A stretch of 36,890 bases of DNA from positions 1 to 36,890 of the forward strand of contig PEAG01000033.1 of assembly GCA_002753505.1 (NCBI GenBank). The letters run 5' to 3'. This document shows positions 11,550-32,288 of this stretch, one piece after another. The notes beneath the pieces are model-generated. The model had not been told where the DNA came from and ran no database searches. It saw only the letters and a program-made list of their open reading frames with translations. The stretch is from Magnetococcales bacterium HCHbin5 (GTDB lineage: Bacteria; Pseudomonadota; Magnetococcia; Magnetococcales; Magnetaquicoccaceae). Position 1 is the first letter of the stretch. Each line of letters starts with the position of its first letter. The position numbers were made by a program, and so were the translations under genes.

Positions 11550-11568
11550 ACTTTGTCGGTTTTTTTAT

Positions 11569-11592
11569 CCCGGATGGCATCACGCATCCGGG
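11569..11592 (+). other. Stem-loop 3' of ppk2
   Basis: CCCGGATG (11569-11576) and CATCCGGG (11585-11592) form an 8-bp stem with an 8-nt loop. It stands 19 bases after the ppk2 stop and 13 bases before the main terminator, and may guard the mRNA 3' end. Confidence 0.55.
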
Positions 11593-11605
11593 TGATCAGC
11601 AAATG

Positions 11606-11641
11606 GGATGGGTCATTTTTTTTGACCCATCCTTTTTTTTT
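11606..11641 (+). terminator. Rho-independent terminator of ppk2
   Basis: GGATGGGTCA (11606-11615) pairs with TGACCCATCC (11623-11632) around a loop of seven Ts, followed by a run of nine Ts. This is the clearest intrinsic terminator in the window and separates ppk2 from the pst operon. Confidence 0.93.
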
Positions 11642-11671
11642 GCCACGCAACAGCAAAGCCTGCCAAACTTT

Positions 11672-11696
11672 GTAACAGCCAGTTTTCCTCTGTTAC
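11672..11696. promoter_or_regulatory. Inverted repeat upstream of the pst Pho boxes
   Basis: GTAACAG (11672-11678) and CTGTTAC (11690-11696) are an exact inverted pair 11 bp apart, 20 bp before the Pho boxes. Could be a regulator site; the binding protein is unknown. Confidence 0.4.
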
Positions 11697-11715
11697 GCCC
11701 GGAATGTAGCCAATA

Positions 11716-11755
11716 TTTTCATTACATTCACAAGCATTTAACAATTATTTTACAA
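11716..11755 (+). promoter_or_regulatory. Double Pho box upstream of pstS
   Basis: Four 7-bp units at 11716, 11727, 11738 and 11749 (TTTTCAT, TTCACAA, TTAACAA, TTTACAA) are each separated by 4 bp. An 11-bp period of CTGTCAT/CTTACAT-like heptamers is the established architecture of PhoB binding sites. A possible -10 (TATGCT, 11787-11792) lies 31 bp downstream, farther than in E. coli, so the exact promoter is uncertain. Activation of the pst operon by phosphate starvation is inferred. Confidence 0.8.
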
Positions 11756-11809
11756 CAAAACAGGTTTGTTTGAGCCCGCATTCGTGTATGCTTTAGGCCA
11801 TGGATTTTT

Positions 11810-11825
11810 TGTGGTGCATATCACA
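11810..11825. promoter_or_regulatory. CRP/FNR-like palindrome upstream of pstS
   Basis: TGTGG-TGCATA-TCACA differs by one base from the CRP consensus TGTGA-N6-TCACA. It lies between the Pho boxes and the pstS GTG, about 70 bp before the start. A cAMP- or redox-type regulator could act here, but a single site by eye is weak evidence. Confidence 0.4.
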
Positions 11826-11896
11826 ACAACCACATCCATAACAAATTTTATTCCATGATATCGATTGTCCAACAGCCGCTTTAAGGAGACTCCCCC

Positions 11897-12772
11897 GTGA
11901 AAAAGATTCTTGCCGTCGCCGTTGCCGCCACCGCCCTGGTCGCCTTGAACTCTGTGGCAGAAGCCCGTGTCATGATTCAGAACAAGGGTTCGGATACCTT
12001 GGTCAATGTGGCACAAGCCTGGGCAGAGGAGTATCAGAAGGTCAAGCCCGATGTGGCCATCGCTGTGACGGGTGGTGGTTCCGGTACCGGTCTGGCCGCC
12101 CTGATCAACAACACCGTGGATATTGCCAACGCCAGTCGCGACATCAAACAAAAAGAGATCGATGCCGCCAAGAAGAACGGGATCACCCCGGTGGAACATG
12201 TGGTGGGTATCGATGCCCTGGCCGTCTATGTCCACGCTTCCAACCCGATGGATACCATCACCATCCCCCAATTGGCGGAAATGTATGGGGAGGGCGGCAA
12301 AACCAAAAAATGGTCTGACCTGGGCGTGACGGTACCGGAGTGCAAAGACCAGAAAATTATCCTGGTCAGTCGGCAAAACAATTCCGGCACCTATGCCTAT
12401 TTCCGCGAACGGGTATTGGGCGAAAAGCGGGACTTTGTCATGGGCACCAAGGATATGCACGGTTCCAAGGATGTGGTGGATCTGGTGGAGCACACCCCCT
12501 GCGCCATCGGCTATAGCGGTCTGGCCTATGCGACACCCGGTATCAAAATGTTGAAAGTTGCGGAAAAAGCGGGAGATCCCGGTATTGCGCCCACGATGGA
12601 GGCCGCGATCAACAAAACCTATCCCATCGCCCGTTCTCTCCTCATGTACACCCCCGGCGAGCCCAAAGGTGAGGTCAAAGCCTATATGGACTGGATCAAG
12701 AGTGATGTGGGGCAGTGCATCATCCAGGACAAAGGCTATGCCCCCGCCCATCCGGTCACCTGCAAAAAATAA
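11897..12772 (+). CDS. pstS: Periplasmic phosphate-binding protein PstS
   Basis: PstS captures phosphate in the periplasm for the PstCAB importer. The 291-residue product starts with GTG, eight bases after AAGGAG. It has a signal peptide (KK, hydrophobic stretch, cleavage likely after AEA at residue 23) and the phosphate-pocket landmarks GSDTL near residue 32, GGGSGTGLAAL near 59 and SRQNNSGTYAYF near 159. It opens a six-gene operon behind a double Pho box. A strong hairpin follows before phoU and probably keeps PstS in excess of the membrane parts. The compact size resembles PstS of Geobacter-type bacteria rather than the E. coli 346-residue form. Confidence 0.95.
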   Translation: MKKILAVAVAATALVALNSVAEARVMIQNKGSDTLVNVAQAWAEEYQKVKPDVAIAVTGGGSGTGLAALINNTVDIANASRDIKQKEIDAAKKNGITPVEHVVGIDALAVYVHASNPMDTITIPQLAEMYGEGGKTKKWSDLGVTVPECKDQKIILVSRQNNSGTYAYFRERVLGEKRDFVMGTKDMHGSKDVVDLVEHTPCAIGYSGLAYATPGIKMLKVAEKAGDPGIAPTMEAAINKTYPIARSLLMYTPGEPKGEVKAYMDWIKSDVGQCIIQDKGYAPAHPVTCKK

Positions 12773-12809
12773 GATACGGTTTTGCAATACTTTTTCAATA
12801 CGATCACCG

Positions 12810-12837
12810 GGGGGGGGCTGGTCTGACAGCCCCCCCC
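12810..12837 (+). other. G/C-tract hairpin between pstS and phoU
   Basis: GGGGGGGGCTG (12810-12820) pairs with CAGCCCCCCCC (12827-12837) around GTCTGA. There is no T run, so partial termination or protection of the upstream pstS message is more likely than full termination; this is the usual means of making binding protein in excess in ABC import operons. Confidence 0.7.
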
Positions 12838-12865
12838 AACCCCCCGCACACGGAGAACAGGATAT

Positions 12866-13954
12866 ATGGCCATTTATGAACAACGGCTACAGAAAGACTT
12901 GACGCGCATCCGGGGAGAGCTCTCCCTGATCGGTGATCGAGTAGAGACAGCCATCCAAAACGCGCTAAAGGCTCTCTTCACCCAGGATGAAAAACTGGCC
13001 AATCTCACCATACTGGGCGATATGGGTATCAATCGCCTCTGCCTCAATCTGGACCGCTTGTGCCACAACTGCATCATTCGGCACCAGCCTCCGGCGGGTC
13101 ATCTGCGGGTCATCTCCTCGGTGATGCGGATGGCCGATGAGTTGGAACGGATTGGGGATTATGCCGCAACCATCAGTCGGGCTGCACTGCATATGCAAAG
13201 ACAGCCTGCCGGCATACTGAAGCGGGACTTGGAGACCATGGCGCAAAACGCCGACACCATGCTGAAACAGGCACTGTCGGCGTTTGCAACCGAGGATGCG
13301 CAACTGGCCCGCAAAACCATGCAAATGGCAGATGTGGTGGGTCAACAACTGACCGATGCCTTTTCCGACCTTGAAAAGACGGAAGAGGAGCATCCCGACC
13401 CTGTCCGCTTTATTTTGGACATTTTTGCCATCTGCTACATGCTGGAACGGGTCAGTGATCGGGCCAAAAATATCTGCGAAGAGACGCTCTTCATGGTGGC
13501 GGGTGAGTGCAAGCCGGAAAAAATATTCACCATCCTTTTTATCGATCAGGAAAACAGCATCAAGAGCCAGATGGCGGAGGCGATTGCCCAGCGGTTCTAT
13601 CCGACCCAGGCCATCTTCCGCAGTGCCGGCCTGCGTGCCGGTATTGTCAGCGAAAGCATGGTCTCCTTCATGCGCTACCAGGGTTGCCCGATGGAAAATG
13701 TCCACGCCAAGGCACTGGAAACCCTCTCGCTGGCGGAAGGCAACCAGATCATCGTCAGCCTGGAGGGTGCCGTCCGTTCCTATCCGCTGACACTGCCTTT
13801 CCACACCGCTTTTCTGGATTGGACAGTAGGCGAAACGCCCGCCGAGGATGCGGAACCCCAGCTCAAACGGGAAAAATATGAGTCGCTGTATCGGGAAATC
13901 TCTCTGCAAATCCGTGGATTGATGGAAATCTTGCGGGGCGAGGAGGTCGCTTGA
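12866..13954 (+). CDS. phoU: PhoU fused to an inactive low-molecular-weight phosphatase-like domain
   Basis: Residues 1-215 form PhoU, two three-helix bundles with metal-site motifs of the ELERIGDYA (near 90) and MLERVSDRAKNI (near 192) type; PhoU links Pst transport state to PhoR. Residues about 220-362 look like a low-molecular-weight tyrosine phosphatase/ArsC domain (ILFIDQENSIKSQMAEA, then SAGLRAGIVSESMVSFM). The catalytic CX5R loop is lost: Asp227 stands where the Cys should be and Lys233 where the Arg should be, and the late Asp-Pro acid motif reads GETP. So the domain is probably a binding or sensing module and not an enzyme. pstC starts one base after its stop. Position between pstS and pstC, instead of last in the operon, is unusual. 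The fusion boundary is inferred by eye. Confidence 0.9.
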   Translation: MAIYEQRLQKDLTRIRGELSLIGDRVETAIQNALKALFTQDEKLANLTILGDMGINRLCLNLDRLCHNCIIRHQPPAGHLRVISSVMRMADELERIGDYAATISRAALHMQRQPAGILKRDLETMAQNADTMLKQALSAFATEDAQLARKTMQMADVVGQQLTDAFSDLEKTEEEHPDPVRFILDIFAICYMLERVSDRAKNICEETLFMVAGECKPEKIFTILFIDQENSIKSQMAEAIAQRFYPTQAIFRSAGLRAGIVSESMVSFMRYQGCPMENVHAKALETLSLAEGNQIIVSLEGAVRSYPLTLPFHTAFLDWTVGETPAEDAEPQLKREKYESLYREISLQIRGLMEILRGEEVA

Positions 13955-13955
13955 T

Positions 13956-14888
13956 ATGAGTGGGCAGCATACAGACGCCGCCCTGGCTGAAAATGCCGGG
14001 GATTCGTTGGATGCCAACTGGTACATCGATAAACTGTTCCAGGGTGTCATGTTTGTTTGTGGCATTTCAGCCGTCCTCTTTGTGTTGGGGATTTTTGCCT
14101 TCGTCTTTGCCGAGGGTGCCGAATTTGTCATCAAGACAATCAACTGGAGCCAGTTTTTGCTTTCACCCCGTTGGGCACCCACCTCGGATTACAATCCGAC
14201 CTACGGTATCTTGGCCTTGATCGCTGGCACGGCCTCGATCACGGTGTTGGCCATGGCGGTTGCCGTCCCCTTCTCATTGGGTGCCGCCATCTTTATTGCC
14301 GAGTTTGCCAAGGGCCGCACCCGTGAGGTACTCAAAATTCTGATCGAGTTGCTGGCTGCCATTCCCTCCGTGGTTTGGGGCTTTATCGGCCTGGCCATCA
14401 TGAACCCATGGATCATCGAAACCTTCGATGTCCCCATCGGGCTGAACGTTCTCAACTGCGGTTTGATTCTGGGGTTGATGGCAGCCCCCATCATCACCTC
14501 CATCGCCGAGGATGCCCTGAAAGCGGTACCAGACACCTATCGGGAGGCCTCAGAAGCCCTGGGAGCCAGCCGTTGGCAAACCACCGCCCGGGTGGTGTTG
14601 CCAGCCGCCAAAAACGGTCTGTTGGCGGCCGTGTTGCTGGGGGTCGGGCGCGGTTTTGGCGAAACCATGGCGGTACTGATGGCCAGTGGCCACTCCATCA
14701 ACCTGCCCTCCAGCGTTTTTGATTCGGTCCGCGCCCTGACAGCCACCATCGCGGCCGAGTTGGGGGAGACCGCGGTGGGTTCAGAACACTATCAGGCCCT
14801 GTTCACCATTGGCATTTTCCTGTTTACAATAACTTTTATCATCAACATGACCGCCGACTGGATCATTCGCGGCTCAAAGAAAGGATAA
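13956..14888 (+). CDS. pstC: Phosphate ABC transporter permease PstC
   Basis: PstC is one half of the inner-membrane phosphate channel. The 310-residue protein has a cytoplasmic N-terminus, a first span (about residues 28-52), a periplasmic loop with SPRWAPTSDYNPTYG, five further spans and the coupling EAA loop EALGASRWQTTARVVLPAAKNG near residue 200 that contacts the ATPase. GRGFGETMAVLMASG after the loop is a PstC signature. It follows phoU by one base and precedes pstA by 3 bases. Confidence 0.96.
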   Translation: MSGQHTDAALAENAGDSLDANWYIDKLFQGVMFVCGISAVLFVLGIFAFVFAEGAEFVIKTINWSQFLLSPRWAPTSDYNPTYGILALIAGTASITVLAMAVAVPFSLGAAIFIAEFAKGRTREVLKILIELLAAIPSVVWGFIGLAIMNPWIIETFDVPIGLNVLNCGLILGLMAAPIITSIAEDALKAVPDTYREASEALGASRWQTTARVVLPAAKNGLLAAVLLGVGRGFGETMAVLMASGHSINLPSSVFDSVRALTATIAAELGETAVGSEHYQALFTIGIFLFTITFIINMTADWIIRGSKKG

Positions 14889-14891
14889 GCC

Positions 14892-15764
14892 ATGTTTGCT
14901 GCCAAACCCGTTAATCTCCGCAATCAACAGGTGGAGGGGCTGTTCCGTCTGCTCTTTGGCATCATGATGGTGGTCCTGATTGTTCCGGTGTTGATGATCA
15001 TTGTCATGCTGGTTTACAAGGGCGGGCCGGCCTTCAGTTGGAATTTTTTGTTTACATTCCCGACTGATGGCATGACCGCGGGGGGTGTTTTTCCTGCCCT
15101 GCTGGGCACCATCTGGCTGGTGGTGGTTTCGCTGTTGGCCTCGGTTCCCCTGGGGGTGGCGGCAGCCATCTATCTCAGTGAGTATGCCCAACAGGAGCAC
15201 TGGTTGACCCGGGTCATCAATCTGGCCACCATCAATCTGGCGGGGGTTCCCTCCATTGTCCATGCCCTGTTTGGTTTGGGTGCCTTTGTACTCTTTCTCA
15301 AATTTGGCACCAGTATTCTGGCCGCCAGTTTGACATTGGCGGTCATGACCTTGCCGGTGGTGATCGTGGCCTCCTGGGAGTCATTGCAGGCGGTACCCCG
15401 GGCCTTCCGGGAGGCCTGTTGGAACATGGGGGCAACCCGTTGGCAGACCATTCGTCAGGTGGTGTTGCCCAATGCCCTGACGGGCATCTTGACGGGCATC
15501 ATTTTGCAGGTTTCCCGGGCTGCCGGTGAGACGGCTCCCATCATGTTCACGGGTGCAGTCTTTTTTCTCCCTTTTTTGCCCGCCGGGGTGTTTGACCAGA
15601 CCATGGCCTTGGCACTGCACCTGTACACCATCTCCACCCAGGTGCCCAATGTACCAGAGTCGCTGCCATTCGGGGTTGCCCTGTTGCTGGTTGGCATGGT
15701 TCTGATCATGAATTCCACGGCTATCATGTTCCGTATGTATTTGAGAGGGAAAAAGAAATGGTAA
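14892..15764 (+). CDS. pstA: Phosphate ABC transporter permease PstA
   Basis: PstA is the second channel subunit. The 290-residue protein has six predicted spans, the GGVFPALLGTIWLV segment near residue 64, NLAGVPSIVHALFGLGAF near 115, and the EAA loop EACWNMGATRWQTIRQVVLPNAL near 174. SRAAGETAPIMFTGA is the PstA signature. Its last bases overlap pstB1 by 7 bp (ATGGTAA), indicating coupled translation. Confidence 0.96.
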   Translation: MFAAKPVNLRNQQVEGLFRLLFGIMMVVLIVPVLMIIVMLVYKGGPAFSWNFLFTFPTDGMTAGGVFPALLGTIWLVVVSLLASVPLGVAAAIYLSEYAQQEHWLTRVINLATINLAGVPSIVHALFGLGAFVLFLKFGTSILAASLTLAVMTLPVVIVASWESLQAVPRAFREACWNMGATRWQTIRQVVLPNALTGILTGIILQVSRAAGETAPIMFTGAVFFLPFLPAGVFDQTMALALHLYTISTQVPNVPESLPFGVALLLVGMVLIMNSTAIMFRMYLRGKKKW

Positions 15765-16585
15765 ACTTTGCCCTGCAGGCAAAAGAGGATCAGCACCCGG
15801 ATGGGAGTGCCGCTCCCGGTTCCGATGCGCCCGTCCAGTTGGCGGTGAACAAGCTGGAGATCCGGTACGGTGGCATGGTGGCGTTGTCGGGTGTGAGCCT
15901 GGATATTCGTCAGAATGAAATTTTTGGCATCATCGGTCCGGCCAACAGTGGCAAGACATCGTTTTTGAATGCGATCAACCGCATGGACATGATGCGGTCC
16001 AACATGACGGTGACGGGGGATATCCATTTCAATGGCGTGGATATACGCCAGTGGCGCAATGTCTACGCTTTGCGCCGTCAGATCGGGGTGGTGTTTCCGT
16101 TGCCGGTCGGGTTGCCCATGACCATCTATGACAATGTGGCCCTGGCTCCCCGATTGAGCGGCAAAAATTTGAGCAGGCAAGCGTTGGATGATTTGGTGGA
16201 ACGCTGTTTGCGGCGAGCGGCACTCTGGGATGAGGTAAAGGATCGTCTCAACTCCCTGGGCAGCTTGCTGTCCGGGGGGCAGCAGCAGCGGTTGACCATC
16301 GCCCGTGCCCTTTCCCAAGAGCCAAAAATGTTGATGCTGGATGAGTTTTCCATTGCGGTGGACCCGGTCACCACCATGCGCATTGAGGATGTATTGAAGG
16401 AGTTGCGCCAGGAGATGACCATTATTCTGGTCACCAATCTGGTGCAGCAGGCCCAACGGTTGGCCCATCGCACCGCCTTTTTCCTCAACGGGGAGTGTGT
16501 GGAGATTGGTGAGACGGAGGCACTCTTTTCCGGCCAGGTAAAGGATTCCCGCACCCAGGACTATATTGAAGGCAAGTTTGGTTAG
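15758..16585 (+). CDS. pstB: PstB-like ATPase with intact signature but degenerate Q- and H-loops (PstB1)
   Basis: An ABC ATPase of the phosphate importer (275 residues). It begins with an acidic 25-residue extension. The Walker A (GPANSGKT, 60-67) is usable but is not the usual GPSGCGKST. The signature LSGGQQQRL (171-179) is canonical. Walker B keeps Asp195 and Glu196 (LDEFS). However the Q-loop glutamine is replaced by Pro114 (VVFPLP) and the switch histidine by Asn227 (VTNLVQQ), and the D-loop reads AVD. By family knowledge, such a subunit should be poor at hydrolysis in its own site but able to supply a good signature to a partner. The partner is almost certainly pstB2, 58 bp downstream. 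It overlaps pstA. Confidence 0.93.
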   Translation: MVNFALQAKEDQHPDGSAAPGSDAPVQLAVNKLEIRYGGMVALSGVSLDIRQNEIFGIIGPANSGKTSFLNAINRMDMMRSNMTVTGDIHFNGVDIRQWRNVYALRRQIGVVFPLPVGLPMTIYDNVALAPRLSGKNLSRQALDDLVERCLRRAALWDEVKDRLNSLGSLLSGGQQQRLTIARALSQEPKMLMLDEFSIAVDPVTTMRIEDVLKELRQEMTIILVTNLVQQAQRLAHRTAFFLNGECVEIGETEALFSGQVKDSRTQDYIEGKFG

Positions 16586-16643
16586 GGTGATGGGGCTGTT
16601 TTCACCACCTCTTGGCGACGCATAACAGGGAAACAAGGATAAA

Positions 16644-17450
16644 ATGGATAATTCCACCGCAACACAAAAACCGTTGGCCAGCACGATCGCCATTCGTGCC
16701 CGCAACTTGAATCTTTGGTATGGCTCCTTTCAGGCACTGTTTGACATCAACCTGGAGATCAAGCAGGGAATGATTACCAGCATGATCGGTCCGTCCGGTT
16801 GTGGCAAGTCCACCATCTTGCGCAGCGTGGATCGCATCAATGAGCGGTTGGGGTATGTTCGTATTGAGGGGGCCATTGAGGTGTTGGACCAGAACATCTA
16901 TGCCCCGGAGGTGGAGTTGGCCCAATTGCGCAAGCAGGTGGGCATGGTGTTCCAGCGTCCCAATCCGCTGCCCATTTCGCTGTTTGACAACATTATTTTT
17001 GGTCACCGGATCCATCGCGCCCCGAACGAAAAATATAGCAAACAGGATGAGTCTGACATTGTCGAGGCCGCTCTGCGCAAGGTTTTATTGTGGGACAAGG
17101 TGAAGGACCGGCTTCACAGCAAGGCGACGGTTGGTCTCTCGCTGGAGGAGCAGCAAAAGCTTTGCATTGCCCGGTTGTTGCCGGTGAAGCCGACTGTCCT
17201 GTTGATGGACGAGCCCTGTTCCGCTCTGGATCCCAAGGGAACGGCGGCGGTGGAGGAGTTGATCTGGGAGTTGCGGGGGGAATATTCCATTCTGCTGGTC
17301 ACCCATAACATGGCCCAGGCGCGACGGGCCAGTGAAGAGTGTATTTTTCTGTTGATGGGGCGGGTGGTCGAGCATCGGGAGACGGATCAGATGTTCATGT
17401 CACCCTCCTGTCAGGAGACGGCCAACTATATTGAAGGCCGGTATGGTTGA
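16644..17450 (+). CDS. pstB: PstB-like ATPase with canonical catalytic motifs but broken signature (PstB2)
   Basis: Second phosphate-importer ATPase (268 residues). Walker A GPSGCGKST (49-57), Q-loop Gln104 (VFQRPNP), Walker B MDEPCSALDP with Asp189/Glu190 and switch His221 (VTHNM) are all canonical PstB. The signature is not: LSGGQ has become LSLEE (165-169, followed by QQKLCIAR). In an ABC dimer each ATP is held by Walker A of one chain and the signature of the other, so PstB2 catalytic residues plus the PstB1 signature make one good site, and the other pair makes one degenerate site. AAGGA precedes the ATG. It is the last gene of the operon. Confidence 0.93.
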   Translation: MDNSTATQKPLASTIAIRARNLNLWYGSFQALFDINLEIKQGMITSMIGPSGCGKSTILRSVDRINERLGYVRIEGAIEVLDQNIYAPEVELAQLRKQVGMVFQRPNPLPISLFDNIIFGHRIHRAPNEKYSKQDESDIVEAALRKVLLWDKVKDRLHSKATVGLSLEEQQKLCIARLLPVKPTVLLMDEPCSALDPKGTAAVEELIWELRGEYSILLVTHNMAQARRASEECIFLLMGRVVEHRETDQMFMSPSCQETANYIEGRYG

Positions 17451-22389: not shown

Positions 22390-24177
22390 TCAGACAACCG
22401 AAAAATGCTCCACCTGAGAAACCGTAACCCAAAACAGCGTCCCATGGGGTAGCACAGCCTCCATGCCAACACTCTCCCCCATCTTTTCAGCCAGATGCTT
22501 GACAATCGAAAGTCCCAACCCTGTCCCTCCCATTTTGCGGGTCCGACCAGAATCGACCCGATAAAACCGTTCAAACAGACGATCCACATGCTGGGGCGCA
22601 ATCCCGGGACCATCGTCCAAAACCTCCAAACGATAACAGTTCACCGACCCGTTGAGCCGAACCCGGATTGAGGAGTTGGGCGGGATATATTTGACCGCAT
22701 TGTCCACAAAGTTGATCAATATCCGACGCATCGCCTCCGCATCGGCCCAGATGGAAACCCCGGCCGGCAGATCAATGTGCAAAGAGATCTCTTTCTCAAC
22801 CGCCGAAGCCCGGATCAGATCCATGACATCCTGTACCAAAGGCAACAAGGCCAACCGCTCCATATCCATGGGAAACTGGTCCGCCTCCAGCCGGGAAAGA
22901 TCCAACAGATCGGCAATAATGCGGGCCAAACGATTGGCATTGCGCTCCATGGCGGTGGCCAACACCCGGCGATACGCCGGATCTTCCATCGCATTGCCAA
23001 GAAGCGTCTGGGCATTGGCCTGAATGACACTGACCGGAGTACGCAACTCATGGGAAACATTGGCCACAAAATCACGCCGAATCGAATCCAATCGACGCTT
23101 CTCCGTCACATCCCGCAACACAACCACATGCCCCTGCCGTTCGTGCAGCGGGGTCATGACCGCCACCAACCGACGGGGGGTAGGCCCTTCCAGTTCAAAT
23201 TCGGTCGTGGAAGCGTCGAGCGGTTCCCGATCCGCCAACTCCAAATCCAACCCCAGATCTTCCAGCACCTGCGCCGGCAAAACAGTCACCAACGGCTTCC
23301 CATCCCACGGCTGGGACAGCCGCAACAGCTCCATGGCAGAACGGTTCATCAAGGTGATCGCATGCTGCTCATCCACCGCAATCACCCCTTCCCCCATGCT
23401 GTGCAACACGGTCGCCATCCTGGACTGTTCCGCCGACAGACGGGCCAACGTCTGATCTTTTTCCGCAGCCAGCAGATTCAGGGAGTCGGCCAAACCGGCC
23501 ATGGCATCATCCCCGCGCACATCAATCCGCGGAGCATGGACCGTTTTGGCCATTCCATGGGCCTGCTCGACCACATAACGCAGGGGGCGAAACACCCATT
23601 GGGCGGACAGATTGCTCAGGGAAAGACCGAAGAGGAGAAAAAGCAGGCCCGCTCCATACAACAGCCCGCGCAGGTGGGTATGGAGGAGAGAGAGATCTGC
23701 CAGCGAAATGGCGGCCCGAACCACACCATGGCCACCCTGTGGATGATTGAACGGCACCGCAATGACCAGCATGGAGTGGGTTGAGACGGTGGCCTCACTG
23801 GTCTCTTCGCCCGGACTCCCCTCCATGGCCTCCTGCACCTCGGGCATGGAGGCATACCCCCCCATGCCCTGCAGGGCCGTGCCATCCTCCTGGGAGTCCC
23901 CCAGCACCCGTCCATTGGCAGCAATGAAGGTGATGCGCACGGCGGGATCCTGGCCCAAGCGATTGGCCAACCGATCAACATTTTCCCTGTCCAGAGGCCA
24001 GGCTTCTGCCTCAATCAGGGTGCGACCAACCTGCGCAAAACGCCGCAACTCCGCCGTTATATGGCCATTCAACCACTCCCCCAGGGTCTCTTCCAGATAA
24101 AAACCCACAACAGCGACAGCGACGACGGTCAACAGAAGGAAGGGCAGGATGTAGCGAATGCGGATACCAAATATCAC
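22390..24177 (-). CDS. phoR: Phosphate sensor kinase PhoR (copy 1, phoB-linked)
   Basis: PhoR phosphorylates PhoB under phosphate limitation. I start at a GTG one base after the phoB stop, with CAGGAACGG as ribosome site; a start at 24285 would run deep into phoB. That gives 596 residues: span one (5-27), a periplasmic domain of about 140 residues, span two (168-189), HAMP-like linker, PAS (GEGVIAVDEQHAITLMN), HisKA with His376 (VSHELRTP) and ATPase ([36 protein letters not shown]). E. coli PhoR lacks such a periplasmic domain; Bacillus-type PhoR has one. It is closely similar over its full length to the second copy at 25366-27141. Confidence 0.93.
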   Translation of the reverse strand: MIFGIRIRYILPFLLLTVVAVAVVGFYLEETLGEWLNGHITAELRRFAQVGRTLIEAEAWPLDRENVDRLANRLGQDPAVRITFIAANGRVLGDSQEDGTALQGMGGYASMPEVQEAMEGSPGEETSEATVSTHSMLVIAVPFNHPQGGHGVVRAAISLADLSLLHTHLRGLLYGAGLLFLLFGLSLSNLSAQWVFRPLRYVVEQAHGMAKTVHAPRIDVRGDDAMAGLADSLNLLAAEKDQTLARLSAEQSRMATVLHSMGEGVIAVDEQHAITLMNRSAMELLRLSQPWDGKPLVTVLPAQVLEDLGLDLELADREPLDASTTEFELEGPTPRRLVAVMTPLHERQGHVVVLRDVTEKRRLDSIRRDFVANVSHELRTPVSVIQANAQTLLGNAMEDPAYRRVLATAMERNANRLARIIADLLDLSRLEADQFPMDMERLALLPLVQDVMDLIRASAVEKEISLHIDLPAGVSIWADAEAMRRILINFVDNAVKYIPPNSSIRVRLNGSVNCYRLEVLDDGPGIAPQHVDRLFERFYRVDSGRTRKMGGTGLGLSIVKHLAEKMGESVGMEAVLPHGTLFWVTVSQVEHFSVV

Positions 24178-24178
24178 G

Positions 24179-24883
24179 TCACCGTTCCTGTGGATGTTCT
24201 CGAAAACGATAGCCAATATTACGAACCGTCTCGATGGCATCTCCCATGACACCCAACTTTTCTCGCAACCGCTTGACATGGACATCGACGGTACGGGTCT
24301 GGATGGCCGTGTTTTGCACGTTCCAGACCTTGGTCAGCAAAGTGTCGCGGGACTGCACCCGCCCTTTGTGGGTCAGCAGCAGATCCAGCAATTTGAACTC
24401 CATGGAGGTCAAGAGGGTCTCCTGTTCGTCCACCCAGACCTGATGCCGCTTGCGGTCCATCTTGAGGGCGTCAAACACCACCAGGGACTCCTCTGCCGGC
24501 TGGCTTTGCGAACCGCTGCGGCGCAGAATGGCGCGCACACGCAGCAACAGCTCTCGCACATTAAAGGGCTTGACCACATAGTCGTCTGCACCCAATTCAA
24601 AGCCAACCACCCGATCGATATCCTCGCTTTTGGCACTGAGAAAGAGTACGGGGGTGTTACGGGTGCGCTCGTGGGAGCGCAGCCGATGGCATACCTCTAT
24701 GCCGGACATGCCAGGCAGCATAATATCCAGGATGGCCAAGTCGGGCGGCCCCTGCTGCATGGCCCACTCCAACCCTTCCTCGCCACTCTGGAATGGATAG
24801 ACCTGATATCCCTCGTGTTTCAGGTTATATTCCAGCGTCGTTAACAGATCTTCCTCGTCCTCGACAATTAAAATATTAGCCAT
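24179..24883 (-). CDS. phoB: Phosphate regulon response regulator PhoB
   Basis: OmpR-family regulator of 234 residues. The receiver has the acidic pocket EDEE (8-11), phospho-acceptor Asp53 (ILDIMLPGMSG), the switch serine in LSAKSE and Lys in KPFNVRELLLR. The winged-helix domain ends with the recognition region TRTVDVHVKRLREKLG and the hairpin IETVRNIGYRF. It directly precedes phoR1 (GTG one base after the stop). The 226 bp to the small ORF upstream hold no further convincing gene. The heptamer repeats found at four sites in this window are its likely targets. Confidence 0.94.
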   Translation of the reverse strand: MANILIVEDEEDLLTTLEYNLKHEGYQVYPFQSGEEGLEWAMQQGPPDLAILDIMLPGMSGIEVCHRLRSHERTRNTPVLFLSAKSEDIDRVVGFELGADDYVVKPFNVRELLLRVRAILRRSGSQSQPAEESLVVFDALKMDRKRHQVWVDEQETLLTSMEFKLLDLLLTHKGRVQSRDTLLTKVWNVQNTAIQTRTVDVHVKRLREKLGVMGDAIETVRNIGYRFREHPQER

Positions 24884-25109
24884 TTCATAATGTTATCCAT
24901 GCGATGCCGGAGGGAAAAGCCAACATACACAGGGAACTCAAAACCACAAGGAACCCCGTGCAAATGGGTATACCCAGGCCATACAACGTCCCAGGCACAC
25001 CCAGCACGGCCATTGTCTACCATTCATGCGTCAAACAGCAAGCAAGTCCGAAGTCCGCGCACGCTTTTCTTTGCAGCGTGGCGACTGCAGTGGCCGCCAT
25101 TTTTATCCG
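24884..25109. other. Intergenic region between phoB and the small ORF
   Basis: 226 bp with no convincing gene. It holds a 16-bp near-palindrome, GGCGACTGCAGTGGCC (25080-25095), 14 bp beyond the small ORF stop, and a weak phoB leader in which the nearest purine-rich ribosome site (GGA) is 13 bases before the ATG. An extra promoter or RNA structure is possible but not clear. Confidence 0.4.
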
Positions 25110-25217
25110 TCATTGCCCGACAACATGACCGTTACGGCGATAATCACGACGGTTAAAATACAAATATCCACCCACAACAACCGCTGCAAATACAATCGAC
25201 GACGCGACGATAACCAT
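25110..25217 (-). CDS. 35-residue single-span membrane small protein
   Basis: An ATG at 25217 follows GGGGAG by 9 bases and opens 35 codons ending TGA at 25110. The product starts MVIVASSIVFAAVVVGGYLYF, a clean single transmembrane helix (residues 2-21), then NRRDYRRNG, a basic tail that should lie in the cytoplasm. It is too short for ordinary ORF cut-offs. It sits between phoR2 and phoB on the same strand and downstream of a Pho-box-like pair, so it is likely in the phoB transcript. By analogy with small membrane modulators of sensor kinases (MgrB on PhoQ) it could act on one of the PhoR proteins; that is inference. Expression is unproven. Confidence 0.65.
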   Translation of the reverse strand: MVIVASSIVFAAVVVGGYLYFNRRDYRRNGHVVGQ

Positions 25218-25351
25218 TGTTGATCTCCCCTGTTGATAATGATGTGGAAAACATGATTACAGGGTAACGGAGCCATTGACCAACAAGCAAGCAATTTATT
25301 GTTAATTATTAATACGTTATTTATTAAGAAGCCTTCAAAAAACCTGCATGA

Positions 25352-25369
25352 TTGTCGATAAATTGTCAC
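25352..25369 (-). promoter_or_regulatory. Pho-box-like pair upstream of small ORF-phoB-phoR1
   Basis: On the minus strand GTGACAA (25369-25363), four bases, then TCGACAA (25358-25352): two units at 11-bp spacing matching the local consensus (T/G)TNACA(A/T). It overlaps the stop codon of phoR2. Read on the plus strand, TTGTCGATAAATTGTCAC also resembles the E. coli Pho box, so orientation is not certain. The AT-rich stretch 25295-25330 downstream would hold the promoter. Autoregulation of phoB is expected from the family. Confidence 0.55.
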
Positions 25370-27141
25370 AGATCCGTATCAGACACAGTGGAAAGCGTCA
25401 CCCAAAACAGCGAACCATGCGGCTTGACATCCTCCATGCCAACCTTCTCCCCCATCTTCTCAGCCAAATGCCTGACAATGGCCAGCCCCAACCCTGTCCC
25501 ACCCATTTTGCGGGAACGGCCGGAATCCACCCGATAAAACCGCTCAAACAACCGCCCCCAATGCTGCGGCGCGATCCCGGCACCGTTGTCAACCACCTCC
25601 AACCGTATCCGCCCTTGACAAGGCGTGCTGCGCACGACGATCCGCGATTGAGTGGGAATATATTTGACCGCATTGTCAAGAAAATTGGATAAAATGCGCC
25701 GCACCACCTCCGTGTCCGCATACACACGCAAATCCGGCAAAATTTCCACCTGGATGGCAATCTGCTTGTCATCGGCCGCCGTCTGTATCAACGCCACCAC
25801 CTCCTGCACAACAGGCAACAGATAAAAATGTTCCAACTCCATGGCAAACTGGTTCGCTTCCAGACGGGAAAGCTCCAACAGGTCGGAAATAATCTGCGCC
25901 AGGCGACTGGCATTGCGCTCCACGGCATCCACCAGAACACGGTTGTAACCTTGCTCCTCCAACGCCCCATCCAGCAACGTCTGCGCATTGGCCTGAATGA
26001 TACTGACCGGCGTGCGCAATTCATGAGAAACATTGGCGACAAAATCCCGCCGCATCAAATCCAGCCGACGCCGCTCCGTCACATCCCGCAATACAATGAG
26101 ATGCCCTTCATGCTCATACAGAGGGGTCATCACCGCCACCACCCGCTGCAGCACAACACCATCCCAATCAAATTCCACACTGAACGGTTGCATCGGCAAC
26201 GGCTCCAATGCCAACCTCAACTCAGCCACCACGTAGGCCGGCAACAAGGCCGCAATGGGTTGGCCAATGGACGGGCTGGACAGACCCAGCAGCTCCAATA
26301 CCGAGCGGTTCATCAGTGTCACCCGCCCCGCCCTATCCAAGGCAATCACCCCCTCCGTCATGCTCTGCAGTACAGTGGCCAACTGGGATTTTTGTTCCGA
26401 CAACAGGGCCAATGTCTCATGCTTTTCTGCCGCCAACAGATTGAGAGAGCTGGCCAGACCCGCCATGGCGTCGTTGGCATGAACCTGAATGCGGGGTGCA
26501 GCAGCCGAATGGACCATGCGCTGGGCACAGGCCATGATATACCGCTGGGTGTTGGTGGCCCAATGGGCCGAAAAACCACCCAGGGAAAGCGCGGTTATGA
26601 CAGCAATCAGGCCGGCCACAAACAGGGCCAGGTTCAAACGATTGTTGATCGATTCCACACTCTCTATCGCAATGGCAACCCGCACCACACCCCGCTCCCC
26701 CAGGGGATGGTGAAAAGAGACCGCCACGTACAACATGGAGCGGGAAAGCGTCGCAGAGTAGTGTTTGCTCTGGCCAAAACCATCTCGCATTGCTGTAACA
26801 ACTTCAGGTCTTTTGCCATGATTTTCCATGGTGCGCAGTGCCTCCCCCTGCCGTTGCGAATCCCCCAGCACCACCCCATCCTCACCAATCAGGCTGACGC
26901 GAATTTCCGGATCCTGACCCAACAGGTTGGCCAACGGGTCCAACCGTTCCATGGTCAACGGCGTCTCCTGGCTCTCAACGAAGGCACGTCCGACCATCGC
27001 ATGGCGACGCAACTCCGCCACCAACTGCGACTCCAGCCAATCCCCCAGGGCATACTCCAGATAGATATCCGCCGTCAGAATGGCGGCAAACACCAACAAC
27101 AGAAAAGACAAAATATATTTGCCGCGAATGTCGAGTGCCAT
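25366..27141 (-). CDS. phoR: Second PhoR-type phosphate sensor kinase (copy 2)
   Basis: A 591-residue paralogue of phoR1 with the same plan: span one (about 8-28), periplasmic domain of about 140 residues, span two (169-189), HAMP-like linker, PAS (EGVIALDRAGRVTLMN), HisKA with His373 (VSHELRTP) and ATPase (FLDNAVKYIP, DNGAGIAP, GGTGLGLAIVRHLAEKMG). Both copies keep all catalytic motifs; most divergence is in the periplasmic part. AAGGAAA precedes the ATG. No response regulator of its own lies next to it; phoB is the nearest, after the small ORF. It probably arose by duplication, allowing two inputs to one regulator. Cross-talk with PhoB is inferred. Confidence 0.92.
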   Translation of the reverse strand: MALDIRGKYILSFLLLVFAAILTADIYLEYALGDWLESQLVAELRRHAMVGRAFVESQETPLTMERLDPLANLLGQDPEIRVSLIGEDGVVLGDSQRQGEALRTMENHGKRPEVVTAMRDGFGQSKHYSATLSRSMLYVAVSFHHPLGERGVVRVAIAIESVESINNRLNLALFVAGLIAVITALSLGGFSAHWATNTQRYIMACAQRMVHSAAAPRIQVHANDAMAGLASSLNLLAAEKHETLALLSEQKSQLATVLQSMTEGVIALDRAGRVTLMNRSVLELLGLSSPSIGQPIAALLPAYVVAELRLALEPLPMQPFSVEFDWDGVVLQRVVAVMTPLYEHEGHLIVLRDVTERRRLDLMRRDFVANVSHELRTPVSIIQANAQTLLDGALEEQGYNRVLVDAVERNASRLAQIISDLLELSRLEANQFAMELEHFYLLPVVQEVVALIQTAADDKQIAIQVEILPDLRVYADTEVVRRILSNFLDNAVKYIPTQSRIVVRSTPCQGRIRLEVVDNGAGIAPQHWGRLFERFYRVDSGRSRKMGGTGLGLAIVRHLAEKMGEKVGMEDVKPHGSLFWVTLSTVSDTDL

Positions 27142-27451: not shown

Positions 27452-28150
27452 TCAGGAAATTTTCACCACGATGTCGTGCAAAAAGTTGCCGGCCCGGGAC
27501 AACTCATGACCCGCATCCGACAGATGCCGATAGATTTCCCGCCGTTTAAAAATTTCCAACACATAACCCATGGCCTCCATTTTGGCTTCCGGGGCATCTG
27601 TTTTCAGTTTGTTCATCAGAGAATCCGCATTGAACAGCTCGGCCAGGGCGCGACGAAACGCCTTGTCCAGGGTATGCTTGGCCTGCACAGCCACCTGGGC
27701 ATCCGCCTCCGCCAGCGCAGTCTCTTTGGTACCCAATTTTTTATAGCCGCGATGCAAAGCCTCATTGGCCTCCCGAATCAGGATCGCCATCTCGGTGGTA
27801 AACTGGCCCGATTTGATGTTCAGCGTCTGCATCTCCTGCACAATCGTAGAGGCATAGGTCAGCGTCACCCCGACCGACATGATGGCCCGTTGCAAATCTT
27901 CCCGATCCAGGGGGGTGGCAAAGGCATTGGCCAACACGCCCAGGTTGCGCACTTTCAGAACATCTTCCTCCCCATCCAACCGGATCACCTTGTCAGCCGC
28001 CGCTTTGCTGCCCGTCTGCATAAACTCCACCAGGGCATCCGAAGCCTGCGAGATCAGTTCGCACTGCTCCAGGATCATGCCATAAAAGTTGGGCATCCGG
28101 GGGAAAACCGCATTGGTGATACCACTGATGAATGAATTACTGCCGCCCAT
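27452..28150 (-). CDS. DUF47/PhoU-like accessory protein of the PiT transporter
   Basis: A 232-residue all-helical protein of the DUF47 (TIGR00153-like, PhoU-related) family, which commonly pairs with PiT carriers and modulates them. Recognisable parts are FPRMPNFYGMILEQCELI near the N-terminus, and the terminal EIYRHLSDAGHELSRAGNFLHDIVVKIS, where conserved Asp and His residues match the metal-binding helices of PhoU relatives. A strong AAGGAG ribosome site precedes the ATG. It follows pit by 81 bp; in many genomes the order is reversed. Together with phoU at 12866 this gives two PhoU-fold regulators in one locus. Confidence 0.88.
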   Translation of the reverse strand: MGGSNSFISGITNAVFPRMPNFYGMILEQCELISQASDALVEFMQTGSKAAADKVIRLDGEEDVLKVRNLGVLANAFATPLDREDLQRAIMSVGVTLTYASTIVQEMQTLNIKSGQFTTEMAILIREANEALHRGYKKLGTKETALAEADAQVAVQAKHTLDKAFRRALAELFNADSLMNKLKTDAPEAKMEAMGYVLEIFKRREIYRHLSDAGHELSRAGNFLHDIVVKIS

Positions 28151-28231: not shown

Positions 28232-29281
28232 CTAGCCAACACCGAGCAGGTGATGCGCAACGACAAACGAGAGCCCACCCACCAGACCAGAGCCGGGAAT
28301 GGTGATCAACCAGGTGCTGACAATCTCCGAAGCCTTGCTCCAGCGCACATCCTTGGGCAACTCCGAAGTACCGATACCCATGATGGTCGAACTGGTCACA
28401 TGGGTGGTGGAGACGGGCAGACCAAACTGGGAGGCACCCAGGATCAACGAGGCAGAGGCCAACTGCGAATCCATGGCGTGCAAGGGCCGCACTTTGTAGA
28501 TACCAAAACCGACCGTCCGCACAATCCGCCAACCACCGGAAAGAATCCCCAGCGTGATGACGATGGAGCAGGCCAACATCACCCAGAACGGCACCTCAAA
28601 CTTGGGAATAAAGCCCCCCAGCACCAGGATCAACGTCACAATACCCATGCTCTTCTGGGCATCGTTGGAACCATGGGAAAAGGCCAGCGCGGCGGTCGTG
28701 ATAAACTGCATCCGCTTCAAGCCGATGTTGATCGTGGGTTTGGCCGCCGCCAGTATCAACCGCATAAAGCGATGCAACAAAAACCCCACCCAGAAACCTG
28801 CGACCGGCGAGATGATGAGCGCGGCCACCACCTTGACCACCCCATTCAATTTATGGTTCACGACCAAATCCTGCATACCCCAGATGACATGATCCGCACC
28901 CGCCGCAACGAGTACTGCGCCAACCAGTCCACCCACCAGAGCGTGCGAAGAGGAAGAAGGAATGCCAAACCACCAGGTGAGCAGGTTCCAGAAGATGGAA
29001 CCCAACATGCCGCATAACACGACGGTCATTGAGACAATGACATGTAGATCCTTGATGTCGACAATTTTACCGATCGTGTTGGCCACCGCCGTACCGCCCA
29101 ACAAAGGCCCCATAAACTCGAAGATGGCTACCACAACCACCGATTGAACGGGCGTCATCGCCCGCGACGCGATCACAGTCCCCACAATGTTGGAGGCATC
29201 GTGAAAACCATTCGTGTAGTCAAAGATTAAAACAACCACCACTGTGGCAATGGCTAAATTGGTTATCAGATCGCTACCCAT
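28232..29281 (-). CDS. pit: Inorganic phosphate transporter, PiT family
   Basis: PiT carriers move metal-phosphate with protons or sodium across the inner membrane, with lower affinity than Pst. The 349-residue protein has about ten spans in two inverted halves, each with a family signature: FDYTNGFHDASNIVGTVIAS near residue 20 and FSHGSNDAQKSMGIV near 203. PSSSSHALVGGLVGA and LPVSTTHVTSSTIMG are the conserved Ser/Thr-His loops of the two halves. AAAGGTGAG precedes the ATG. A double Pho box lies 180-220 bp upstream. Whether PhoB activates or represses pit differs between bacteria, so the sign is not predicted here. Confidence 0.95.
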   Translation of the reverse strand: MGSDLITNLAIATVVVVLIFDYTNGFHDASNIVGTVIASRAMTPVQSVVVVAIFEFMGPLLGGTAVANTIGKIVDIKDLHVIVSMTVVLCGMLGSIFWNLLTWWFGIPSSSSHALVGGLVGAVLVAAGADHVIWGMQDLVVNHKLNGVVKVVAALIISPVAGFWVGFLLHRFMRLILAAAKPTINIGLKRMQFITTAALAFSHGSNDAQKSMGIVTLILVLGGFIPKFEVPFWVMLACSIVITLGILSGGWRIVRTVGFGIYKVRPLHAMDSQLASASLILGASQFGLPVSTTHVTSSTIMGIGTSELPKDVRWSKASEIVSTWLITIPGSGLVGGLSFVVAHHLLGVG

Positions 29282-29462: not shown

Positions 29463-29502
29463 TTGTTACGCAAATGTAAATTTTATGTAAACTGAATGTG
29501 AC
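29463..29502 (-). promoter_or_regulatory. Double Pho box upstream of pit
   Basis: On the minus strand, units GTCACAT, TTTACAT, TTTACAT and GTAACAA follow each other with 4-bp gaps (TCAG, AAAA, TTGC), giving a strict 11-bp period over 40 bp. CATATT and CATAAT hexamers follow within 7-25 bp towards pit and could serve as a -10. The pit start codon is about 180 bp downstream, so a long leader is implied. Confidence 0.82.
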
Positions 29503-29581: not shown

Positions 29582-29668
29582 AACCAACAACCCATCGGTA
29601 TTGGGTCGTTTTGGGCTCTACTTTTGCGAAAATGCAAACAGGCGCGGCAGGGGCGAGATCAGGTTTTA

Positions 29669-29719
29669 TTCACAATTTTGACACAATTTTCGAGTGCATT
29701 TGTGACGCAATTATGACAA
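29669..29719 (+). promoter_or_regulatory. Pho-box-like repeat array upstream of the P-loop/FHA-phosphatase genes
   Basis: Heptamers in 11-bp phase start at 29669 (TTCACAA), 29680 (GACACAA), 29691 (CGAGTGC, poor), 29702 (GTGACGC) and 29713 (ATGACAA). Four of five fit the local PhoB consensus. The last unit ends 60 bp before the start codon at 29780, a good activator position. No clear -10 could be picked. Confidence 0.65.
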
Positions 29720-29779: not shown

Positions 29780-30475
29780 ATGTCTTATCTGTTATGCTGG
29801 CCGGAAGATGAGGTGTGGTCACTTTCCCAAGGCACAATACCTGTGATTGCCATCCAATTACGTCCATACAAAAGCCCCAAAGAGCATAAAGGGCTCTTGT
29901 TCCCGCCCGACCTGCACCTGCACCGGTTGTTGGTGGTCGCACCCCCTGGAACCGGCAAGACCACTCTGATACGTCGCCTGGGGGGGTGGGTTGAGGAGGG
30001 ATGCGTCAATTTGGCCAACAATCGCTGGTGGCAAGACCGTTCCCTGGCGTTCCGGCCACGAGAGTTGCATCTGCTGCTCCCTTTTGTGGGTCTGAGTGAG
30101 GCCTGCTCCGTCTATGATCCCCTCTGGTTGCACAACCCGACCCCACTTGATTTTCGCCGTATCCATGTTCCACCCCCAAAAAATCATCTATTGGCTCCAG
30201 ACTGGCGCGTCAAGTTGGTCCTGGAGTTTTTGCTGCCTCCGCCTGAACAGGTCTTCGCGCGACGACAGGATCGCGTCAAACAGGGCACCCATCCCCTGGA
30301 CCTGGGGGTCACGTTGGAAGATGTCACAAAACAACTTTTGGTTTACTGGAATACCGCCAAGCATTTACATCGCTGCGGGTTGGATGTCTACATTCGCAAG
30401 GATGTGAGTGCGCCGCCGCTGGAAATTATTGATACCATGGATCAGCAGCAACAGGGTGGTCAAATGATATTATGA
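29780..30475 (+). CDS. Small P-loop NTPase of unknown family, paired with an FHA-phosphatase
   Basis: A 231-residue cytoplasmic protein. The one firm motif is a Walker A loop, APPGTGKTT (54-62), following a short beta-like stretch LHRLLVVA. No clear Walker B, sensor or lid could be assigned, although CSVYDPLWLH near 109 could supply an acidic residue. The C-terminal third is helical (LEDVTKQLLVYWNTAKHLHRCGLDVYIRKD). I do not recognise the family; a small kinase or AAA-like ATPase are both possible. Its stop overlaps the next start (ATGA), so it is made together with the FHA-phosphatase. Pho-box-like repeats precede it. A kinase that opposes the phosphatase would make sense but is inference. 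Confidence 0.8.
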   Translation: MSYLLCWPEDEVWSLSQGTIPVIAIQLRPYKSPKEHKGLLFPPDLHLHRLLVVAPPGTGKTTLIRRLGGWVEEGCVNLANNRWWQDRSLAFRPRELHLLLPFVGLSEACSVYDPLWLHNPTPLDFRRIHVPPPKNHLLAPDWRVKLVLEFLLPPPEQVFARRQDRVKQGTHPLDLGVTLEDVTKQLLVYWNTAKHLHRCGLDVYIRKDVSAPPLEIIDTMDQQQQGGQMIL

Positions 30476-32064
30476 AGACAATAGGAGAGTTGGTCAAAAA
30501 GCTGGACATGATTTCAGGCATCAAACGGGTGGCGGAACGGTGCCGCAAAAAACAGGAACTGCTGCTGGTGGGGGAGCGACATATCCGGGGGAGTTGTATC
30601 CGCATTCCCTGTTCCGGGGCGGTGGTCGAGATTTGCCTGGGGGGACCGGATGGCAAGATACTTCATCTGCAACCCGAGATCCCCTTGACCATCGGAGAGG
30701 AGAAGCAGTGGCCCACCTATTGGCTGGTGGACATGGCGCGCATGACCAGTGGTCATGGCAGCTTTTTGCGGCTGAAGCCCAAACAAAATTTGGTGTTGGG
30801 TCGTCACTCCAGCGAACAAACGGCCCTGTTTGACTATTCCACCCGCATTTCCAGTCGCCATTTAATGATTTTGCATGAGGGTGAAAGTCTGCAACTGTCT
30901 GACCTGGCCTCCAATGGTGGCACCTGTCTGCGTCTGCTTCCCGACCCGCCGCCCTCCCTCTGTCTTGCCACTTGGCATCAGCGGCAACGGCAGCGTCTTG
31001 CAGAGCTTTTTTTTGAGGGAATGGCTGTGCCCGATGATGGTTCCATTATTCAGCCCCTCGCTGCCCCGGTGGCGATGGAGCGGTTGCAGCGTGCCCATGC
31101 CGTTTTGCGTACCGCCTTTCTGCCGGTCAACTGTTGTCCTGCCTCATCGACTCCTGATCCCCAGGAGTCATCGGCCAAAGGGGAGAGCCGTGCTGTGGTC
31201 TCCGCCAGTGATCACGATACCGATGCAGACGAGGAGGATGTTGCCGGGGATACGGGTACGGCGGCGGCCTCTCCCCTCATCCATCTGCCCGTGGATACTC
31301 TGCCCATCGTTGTCGGGGATCTGCATGCCAAAGTGGACAATCTGTTGACCCTTTTGATCACCGGGGGGGTGTTGGCGGCCCTGGAGAACGGGGCAGCAAC
31401 TTTGGTCTTTTTGGGTGATGCGGTGCATCCGGATGAGGTTGGCCAATATGCGGAGATGCAGGGTTCCATGTTGATCATGGATATTATTTTGACTCTGATG
31501 GCCCATTTTCCTGGCAAGGTGCTTTATCTGCGGGGTAATCATGATGGCTTTTCTGAAGAGATTCACAAGGGAAGCGTCTCCCAGGGCCGGGTTTGGCAGC
31601 GGGTCTTGACGGAGACCAGGGGCAAGGCCTACCGGGTGGCCATGAAGGCTTTTTACCAGGATCTGCCCTATATGGTGGTTCATCCCCACCTGGTGGCCAC
31701 CCATGCGGCTCCGCCTGTGATAAAAATCAGCCTGGAGTTGTTGGCTGATATGCGCCAGCATCCCCAACTGATCCATCAGGTGAGTTGGAACCGGATGCAT
31801 CAGCCCCGCTGGCCCAGTGGCTATCGGGAAAAGGATATTAAAAATTTACGCAATGTTCTTGAGTTGGGGAAGGATGTTCCGTTTGTTGTGGGGCATACCC
31901 CCATGGATCATGAGCATACGGCGTGGTTGCATGCGGGGGAGATGGCGCATCATCATATTGTCTATTCGGGAACCTTGGATCGGGTTGGTTGGTTGGTTTG
32001 TCTGTCCGGTGGGGTGATACACATGGAGTGTCCGGTAGTACATCAACCGGGGATGGTTGTCTGA
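30472..32064 (+). CDS. FHA-domain PPP-family (Ser/Thr) phosphatase
   Basis: A 530-residue cytoplasmic protein. The FHA domain, a phosphothreonine reader, is at about 85-155 with Gly110-Arg111, Ser127-x-x-His130 and Asn148-Gly149, all the usual ligand-binding positions. A variable acidic linker (about 215-270) follows. The metallophosphatase core is at about 278-500: Asp283 and His285 (GDLHAK), Asp316 (LGDAV), Asn356-His357-Asp358 (RGNHD), His411 (THAAP) and His475 (GHTPM), the full set of metal and catalytic residues of PPP enzymes. The GDxVDRG motif is replaced by GDAVHPDE, so the arginine is lost. The N-terminal 80 residues are unassigned. It overlaps the P-loop gene by 4 bp. Confidence 0.88.
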   Translation: MKTIGELVKKLDMISGIKRVAERCRKKQELLLVGERHIRGSCIRIPCSGAVVEICLGGPDGKILHLQPEIPLTIGEEKQWPTYWLVDMARMTSGHGSFLRLKPKQNLVLGRHSSEQTALFDYSTRISSRHLMILHEGESLQLSDLASNGGTCLRLLPDPPPSLCLATWHQRQRQRLAELFFEGMAVPDDGSIIQPLAAPVAMERLQRAHAVLRTAFLPVNCCPASSTPDPQESSAKGESRAVVSASDHDTDADEEDVAGDTGTAAASPLIHLPVDTLPIVVGDLHAKVDNLLTLLITGGVLAALENGAATLVFLGDAVHPDEVGQYAEMQGSMLIMDIILTLMAHFPGKVLYLRGNHDGFSEEIHKGSVSQGRVWQRVLTETRGKAYRVAMKAFYQDLPYMVVHPHLVATHAAPPVIKISLELLADMRQHPQLIHQVSWNRMHQPRWPSGYREKDIKNLRNVLELGKDVPFVVGHTPMDHEHTAWLHAGEMAHHHIVYSGTLDRVGWLVCLSGGVIHMECPVVHQPGMVV

Positions 32065-32118
32065 TCCCGAGGCGGTGTTCATACCACTTTTCTTTGCTTT
32101 GCTTTTCTTTTCTTAATC

Positions 32119-32288
32119 TTTTAAGACTATTGCAGGGGTCCGGGGACCGTCACGGTCCCCGGTGGGGTGCAGGGGCAAAGCCCCTGCATGTAACGGGCGC
32201 GCTTTCACCGAAGCAAATTTCCGCAGGAAATTTGCGCAGCGCGCCCAAAACGCCCCGCAGGGGCACTCCTGGAGGGCGGCAGCCCGAC
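32119..32288 (+). repeat. Structured repeat element, left arm of an inverted pair
   Basis: 170 bp from TTTTAAGACTATTGCAGG to CAGCCCGAC. It holds successive stem-loops: GGGGACCG-TCA-CGGTCCCC; GCAGGGGC-AAA-GCCCCTGC; an outer stem GGGCGCGC (32195-32202) with GCGCGCCC (32239-32246) enclosing an inner hairpin 32213-32235 with a GCA loop; and GCCCC-GCA-GGGGC. No open frame. Homologous to 32414-32583 (inverted) and 36727-36890. It may also terminate the transcript of the FHA-phosphatase gene, 55 bp upstream. Confidence 0.9.

Follow-up and report, generated by a model that had tools for sequence, protein, structure and literature searches.

A conserved P-loop kinase-like and FHA-phosphatase gene pair of magnetotactic cocci with a possible role in phosphate uptake

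Several described systems each resemble part of the gene pair considered here. In bacterial Pnkp, of the Pnkp-Hen1 RNA repair system, a P-loop kinase-like domain is joined to a calcineurin-like phosphatase and a ligase. P-loop nucleoside, nucleotide, and polynucleotide kinases (adenylate kinase, hCINAP, dNK, Pnk) share a Walker A motif, a lid-type RxxR, a common order of structural elements, and an Asp at the end of strand 2. Eukaryotic PPP Ser/Thr phosphatases (PP2A, PP1, calcineurin, PP5) are characterized by a two-metal ligand set, and the FHA proteins FhaB (Rv0019c), GarA, and ArnA by a domain with phosphothreonine-binding Arg and Ser residues. To our knowledge, how bacterial low-affinity Pit transport is gated through DUF47 proteins is poorly understood. 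The locus reported herein encodes a 231-aa P-loop kinase-like protein (PL) and a 530-aa FHA-like plus calcineurin-like phosphatase protein (FP). Like Pnkp, the pair brings a P-loop kinase-like domain together with a calcineurin-like phosphatase; unlike Pnkp, it has neither ligase nor Hen1, bears an FHA-like domain instead, and has phosphate-transport genes as neighbors.

The window, that is, the whole stretch of DNA analyzed, was a contig (C164) of 36,890 bp from a 4.19-Mb genome (G000). It holds a pst-pho phosphate island of ~21 kb that runs from ppk2 at 10713 through pst and pho genes to DUF47 and pit, and then to PL and FP. On the plus strand, ppk2, pstS, phoU, pstC, pstA, and two pstB genes occupy 10713..17450, of which PPK2, one permease, and one ABC protein had Pfam matches and the remaining names come from gene order and sequence similarity. 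The two pstB genes are in tandem (15758-16585 and 16644-17450). On the minus strand, within 22390..27141, a single phoB-like regulator gene (24179-24883) is flanked by two phoR-like kinase genes (22390-24285 and 25366-27141). These are followed, also on the minus strand, by genes for a DUF47/PhoU-like Pit accessory protein (27452..28150; Pfam match under the cut-off) and a Pit-type phosphate transporter (28232..29281; PHO4, PF01384, E 4e-87). PL (29780..30475; delineated by its ORF, a family alignment, a structure model, and Foldseek) and FP (30472..32064; ORF, Pfam, profile, and model) are on the plus strand, between pit/DUF47 on one side and 90-bp repeats (32519-32850) on the other. A prior reading of this DNA from its letters alone (the sequence-only reading) had placed two translationally coupled genes between the pit operon and repeats, and both points hold, the PL stop and FP start sharing an ATGA at 30472..30475 (plus strand).

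Both genes belong to families with a narrow distribution. Among 61 relatives searched, PL was found in 18 genomes, with one match being marginal, and FP likewise in 18. Relatives in 17 further genomes, at about 30-58% identity, retain the same PL and FP motifs, so that the pair in the window is not a chance occurrence; PL and FP are real, conserved families. When the search was widened to 398 genomes of the phylum, FP was confined to the order at E 1e-6, and PL matches beyond it were no stronger than 1e-4. Beyond the phylum, a scan with the PL alignment recovered at least two loci, one in a Ca. Thiosymbion MAG (L138), where assignment of the contig rests on binning, and one in Ca. Electrothrix marina (L139); a less sensitive scan of genome contigs with a single FP sequence gave no match. 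Searches of viral and plasmid sequences returned no PL homologue. In the genomes searched, the pair is nearly confined to those of magnetotactic cocci.

The occurrence of the two genes is tightly matched. Of 48 genomes of the order, 17 had both and 30 had neither, and the single discordant genome was 75% complete, giving agreement in 47/48 (Fisher P 4e-12, with kinship ignored). The four-base overlap was present in 5/8 adjacent PL-FP pairs; counted from the first base of the PL stop codon, the FP start of the remaining three lay 5 to 9 bases downstream. Moreover, in the cable bacterium Ca. Electrothrix marina, PL and FP were in a single open frame (L139, 4329-6260) that runs off the contig. 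Co-occurrence, four-base coupling, and this fusion together argue that PL and FP act together. The Electrothrix fusion is located downstream of a HamB-type helicase gene and DUF262 defense-type genes.

PL was described in the sequence-only reading as a P-loop protein of no recognized family, and indeed no Pfam or NCBIfam model reached its cut-off. Its Walker A motif, APPGTGKT (residues 54-61; 29939..29962, plus strand), has the family form G-P-P-G-x-G-K-S/T, with GxGK kept in 27/27 aligned sequences. The same alignment contained 22 invariant columns, including the Walker A residues, E73, WW, PRE-x-H, R162, and R206. R162 (27/27) and R165 (26/27) form a lid-type RxxR (30263..30274, plus strand). 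In the structure model (pLDDT 87), the order of strand, P-loop, helix, strand, and, after intervening elements, lid helix and strand was as in P-loop kinases. Foldseek searches of the PDB and BFVD returned mostly P-loop phosphotransferases as weak matches (best E 2e-3, TM 0.3-0.4), the nearest being nucleoside and nucleotide kinases, with the polynucleotide kinase 4gp6 also among them. PL differs from these kinases in the weakness of the fold match (E no better than 2e-3), in the lack of a Pfam or NCBIfam model over its cut-off, and in a signature of its own, WW-x(n)-PRE[LV]H-x(3)-P. The model suggests a fold distantly akin to that of P-loop kinases, and PL may possess kinase activity. Position 77, at the end of strand 2, is where P-loop kinases place their catalytic Asp, and Asp was present in 26/27 aligned sequences, the sole exception being the PL of the window, which has Asn (30008..30010, plus strand). 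The window protein may perhaps have retained ATP binding, with transfer lost or changed. Long PL forms in other relatives carry a fused GAF domain and a C-terminal hydrophobic segment, an arrangement that fits expectation for a sensor.

The FP model (pLDDT 86) comprises a helix, a beta-rich domain (residues 34-156), a helical linker, and a phosphatase domain (residues ~269-521; 31276..32034, plus strand), the last identified by PF00149, profile, and Foldseek. The PF00149 calcineurin-like phosphoesterase match (E 1.9e-6, residues 279-486) was the only one to a curated family that reached its cut-off. The sequence-only reading had seen here a PPP phosphatase with a full metal set. As regards the metal ligands and the fold this was correct: D283, H285, D316, N356, H411, and H475 were invariant in 27/27 sequences, and the nearest structures were PP2A (E 1e-10, TM 0.7 by target), PP1, calcineurin, and PP5, which dominate the library. 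However, identity to the eukaryotic enzymes was 10-14%, an FHA-like domain is located N-terminally, and PPP motif 2, GDxVDRG, was replaced by GD-x-x-H in all FPs (GDAVHPDE in the window), with an invariant His standing where the motif has its second Asp. On account of this motif, we term FP PPP-like rather than a textbook PPP.

The FHA-like domain of FP (residues about 34-157; 30571..30942, plus strand) was detected by profile and model, the beta-rich region of the latter being in agreement with it. FHA similarity was weak from the single sequence, and profile comparison matched FhaB/TB39.8 (E 1e-3) and also ArnA. In the window, the phosphothreonine-contacting Arg and Ser (R111 and S127) are present, as are the structural Gly and His (H130). 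Across the family, the structural Gly and His were kept in 26/26 members, while, unlike in FhaB, GarA, and ArnA, the Arg (15/26) and Ser (5/26) varied. The domain itself was retained in 26/27 FPs; in the exception, a phosphate-linked FP (G026), the frame opens 9 bases past the start of the PL stop codon, which is too little space for an FHA domain. Because of this variation and the loss from a phosphate-linked member, phosphothreonine reading is not supported as a core property of the family. The phosphothreonine-reading FHA domain proposed in the sequence-only reading is accordingly narrowed to an FHA-like domain which, judged from its residues, may have that role in the window FP.

The combination of these folds raises nucleic acid end healing as an explanation, with PL as a 5′-OH polynucleotide kinase and FP as a 3′ or 2′,3′ phosphatase, comparable to bacterial Pnkp and eukaryotic PNKP. 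The logic of a P-loop kinase with a PPP-type phosphatase would be the same, PNKP likewise has an FHA domain, 4gp6 was among the PL fold matches, and the Electrothrix fusion (HamB/DUF262) and the long PL of family f8 (sbcDC) have suggestive neighbors. Against this, sequence similarity of PL to Pnkp1 was confined to the P-loop, no ligase domain or Hen1 accompanied PL-FP, linkage to phosphate genes was strong, and the viral and plasmid searches had yielded no PL homologue. Further, PNKP_ligase (PF16542) and Hen1 (PF12623) occurred in one genome of the order (G011, C94:5579-9582), which has neither PL nor FP, and we rejected a Pnkp-Hen1 identity. End repair, which the sequence-only reading had offered as its alternative, is disfavored on these grounds, and we hold it to be decidedly improbable. 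A defense module was also rejected: in PADLOC, the one match to PL (mad8) was to its P-loop, and neither FP nor the fusion had a match.

Phosphate genes were the commonest theme in the neighborhoods of PL-FP, one among several. PHO4 was within 5 kb of PL at 7/27 loci, against 0.16 expected (P 1e-10), and when counted by family the link held in 4/9 (P 3e-6). Genomes with PL also tended to be those with a Pit of the 422-aa type (P 1e-6). The arrangements involved are unlike one another: PL-FP is beside pit in the window (G000), faces the 422-aa Pit beside pst operons in G013 and G010, is part of an NptA-PL-DUF47-Pit-FP cluster in G027 and G038, adjoins phoB-phoR in G028, and forms DUF47-Pit-PL-FP on one strand in Thiosymbion (L138). 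The phosphate linkage posited from the window is in this respect above chance. Homologues do occur near phosphate genes, yet no PHO4 neighbor was found in family f8 or in G022, where FP is by lpxK-waaA or rnc-era-recO. On quick trees with several weak branches, the phosphate label required at least six changes for PL and at least four for FP, and the linkage is lineage-dependent. The f8 long PL-GAF-TM gene adjoins sbcD in five genomes (L075, L079, L083, L086, L091), four of which also have sbcC there. One FP lineage (L062, L068, L070, L071, L073, L077, L080, L087, L089) is located beside lpxK, mostly with waaA, and some of its members are near rnc-era-recO.

These other neighborhoods would accord with a phosphatase module that has a general role in the envelope or in housekeeping, that was ancestrally located by lpxK/rnc-era, and for which the phosphate neighborhood is incidental or clade-specific; PL or FP had lpxK nearby in 9 genomes and rnc-era-recO in 7, and f8 lacks the PHO4 link. 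We consider this improbable given the by-family linkage (P 3e-6) and its repetition with varied gene orders and also in the MAG of a gammaproteobacterium.

The window was scanned with a matrix of nine E. coli Pho boxes. Its two best matches were both between pit and PL, on the minus strand and directed toward pit: TTGTCATAATTGCGTCAC at 29702..29719, the best, and TTTACATAAAATTTACAT at 29474..29491. None of 704 AT-matched 498-bp segments from related loci held two such sites. Pho control of pit is a well-supported prediction from these sequences. The best plus-strand match before PL was weaker (29667..29684, 9.8 bits, toward PL). The claim that the PL-FP genes are preceded by heptamers in PhoB phase is thus right as to the sites, but the two strong ones are oriented to pit and not to PL. 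PL upstream regions of relatives had a mild excess of Pho-box-like sites, too weak for conservation ahead of PL across the family, which we rejected.

We propose that PL and FP may together form a switch based on reversible phosphorylation, in which PL would act as a non-Hanks, P-loop kinase-like half and FP as a metal-dependent phosphatase half docked by its FHA-fold domain. In the lineage of the window, the switch would act in phosphate uptake, and its likeliest means would be to control whether a protein of the Pit/DUF47/Na-Pi uptake system is phosphorylated; the putative target would be either the transporter or the DUF47 protein that partners it, and PL might sense ATP. The observed basis is the conserved pair, its linkage and fusion, kinase-like and PPP-like folds, and phosphate neighborhoods. 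Two considerations make a protein of the uptake system appear the likeliest substrate: FP is similar to protein phosphatases and has kept an FHA-fold domain, and Pit and DUF47 are the commonest neighbors. Points against the switch are the weak PL fold matches, N77 in the window, the absence of PHO4 in f8 and G022, the defense-type neighbors in Electrothrix, and strong Pho boxes that face pit; taking both sides, we put this reading at a little under an even chance. That PL must be the kinase because the genome has no Hanks kinases was a further argument that we rejected; PF00069 matches were present in all 48 genomes of the order, with six in that of the window, and PL need not be the sole kinase.

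The substrate could instead be a small phosphorylated molecule that signals the state of phosphate or energy supply, such as a nucleotide, another soluble messenger, or a compound related to polyphosphate. GAF domains, which the long PL forms bear, often bind small molecules, and calcineurin-like enzymes often work on them. The nearest PL folds being nucleoside and nucleotide kinases, the variable phosphothreonine pocket, and the absence of FHA from one phosphate-linked FP also point this way. Conversely, the FP phosphatase is structurally nearest to protein phosphatases (with the dominance of these in the library to be kept in mind) and the FHA-fold domain in 26/27 FPs favors a protein partner. 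We view a small-molecule substrate as unlikely.

The proposed protein switch bears on the suggestion in the sequence-only reading of an undescribed branch of phosphate signaling. The phosphate link and the joint action of the genes were upheld, whereas a phosphothreonine-reading core and a textbook PPP were not, and the linkage depends on lineage. Among titles and abstracts searched, no paper described this combination. It is possible, although on balance doubtful, that a non-Hanks P-loop kinase set against a variant FHA-phosphatase forms an undescribed arm of phosphate control over Pit/DUF47 or Na-Pi transport, perhaps coupling phosphate uptake to the storage of polyphosphate. Very large polyphosphate inclusions are known from magnetotactic cocci (PMC8786505), and polyphosphate is also present in cable bacteria (PMC7071850). 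The presence of PL-FP in both of these polyphosphate carriers is suggestive only. If true, a dedicated kinase-like/phosphatase pair by Pit/DUF47 genes would offer a testable handle on Pit gating, and the module could be relevant to phosphorus cycling in the environment. Additionally, PL represents a P-loop family and FP a phosphatase active-site variant, neither of which has a curated model.

Finally, the genome of the window contains other PL-type sequences and a family of MITE-like elements. On another contig (C136), a gene at L053 (6130-7089, minus strand) encodes a DnaJ domain joined to a P-loop domain of PL type; the 422-aa Pit is about 4 kb away, and a Na/Pi cotransporter with a PhoU domain adjoins the fusion gene. 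The MITE-like elements are roughly 430-470 bp with inverted ends of about 60-68 bp, and copies were found in the window, L053, and L098. In the window, the inverted ends pair 32117-32184 (minus) with 32519-32586 (plus), and one end is repeated 3.7 times to form the 90-bp tandem array at 32519-32850. More copies of the element flank the PL paralogues on contig C136.
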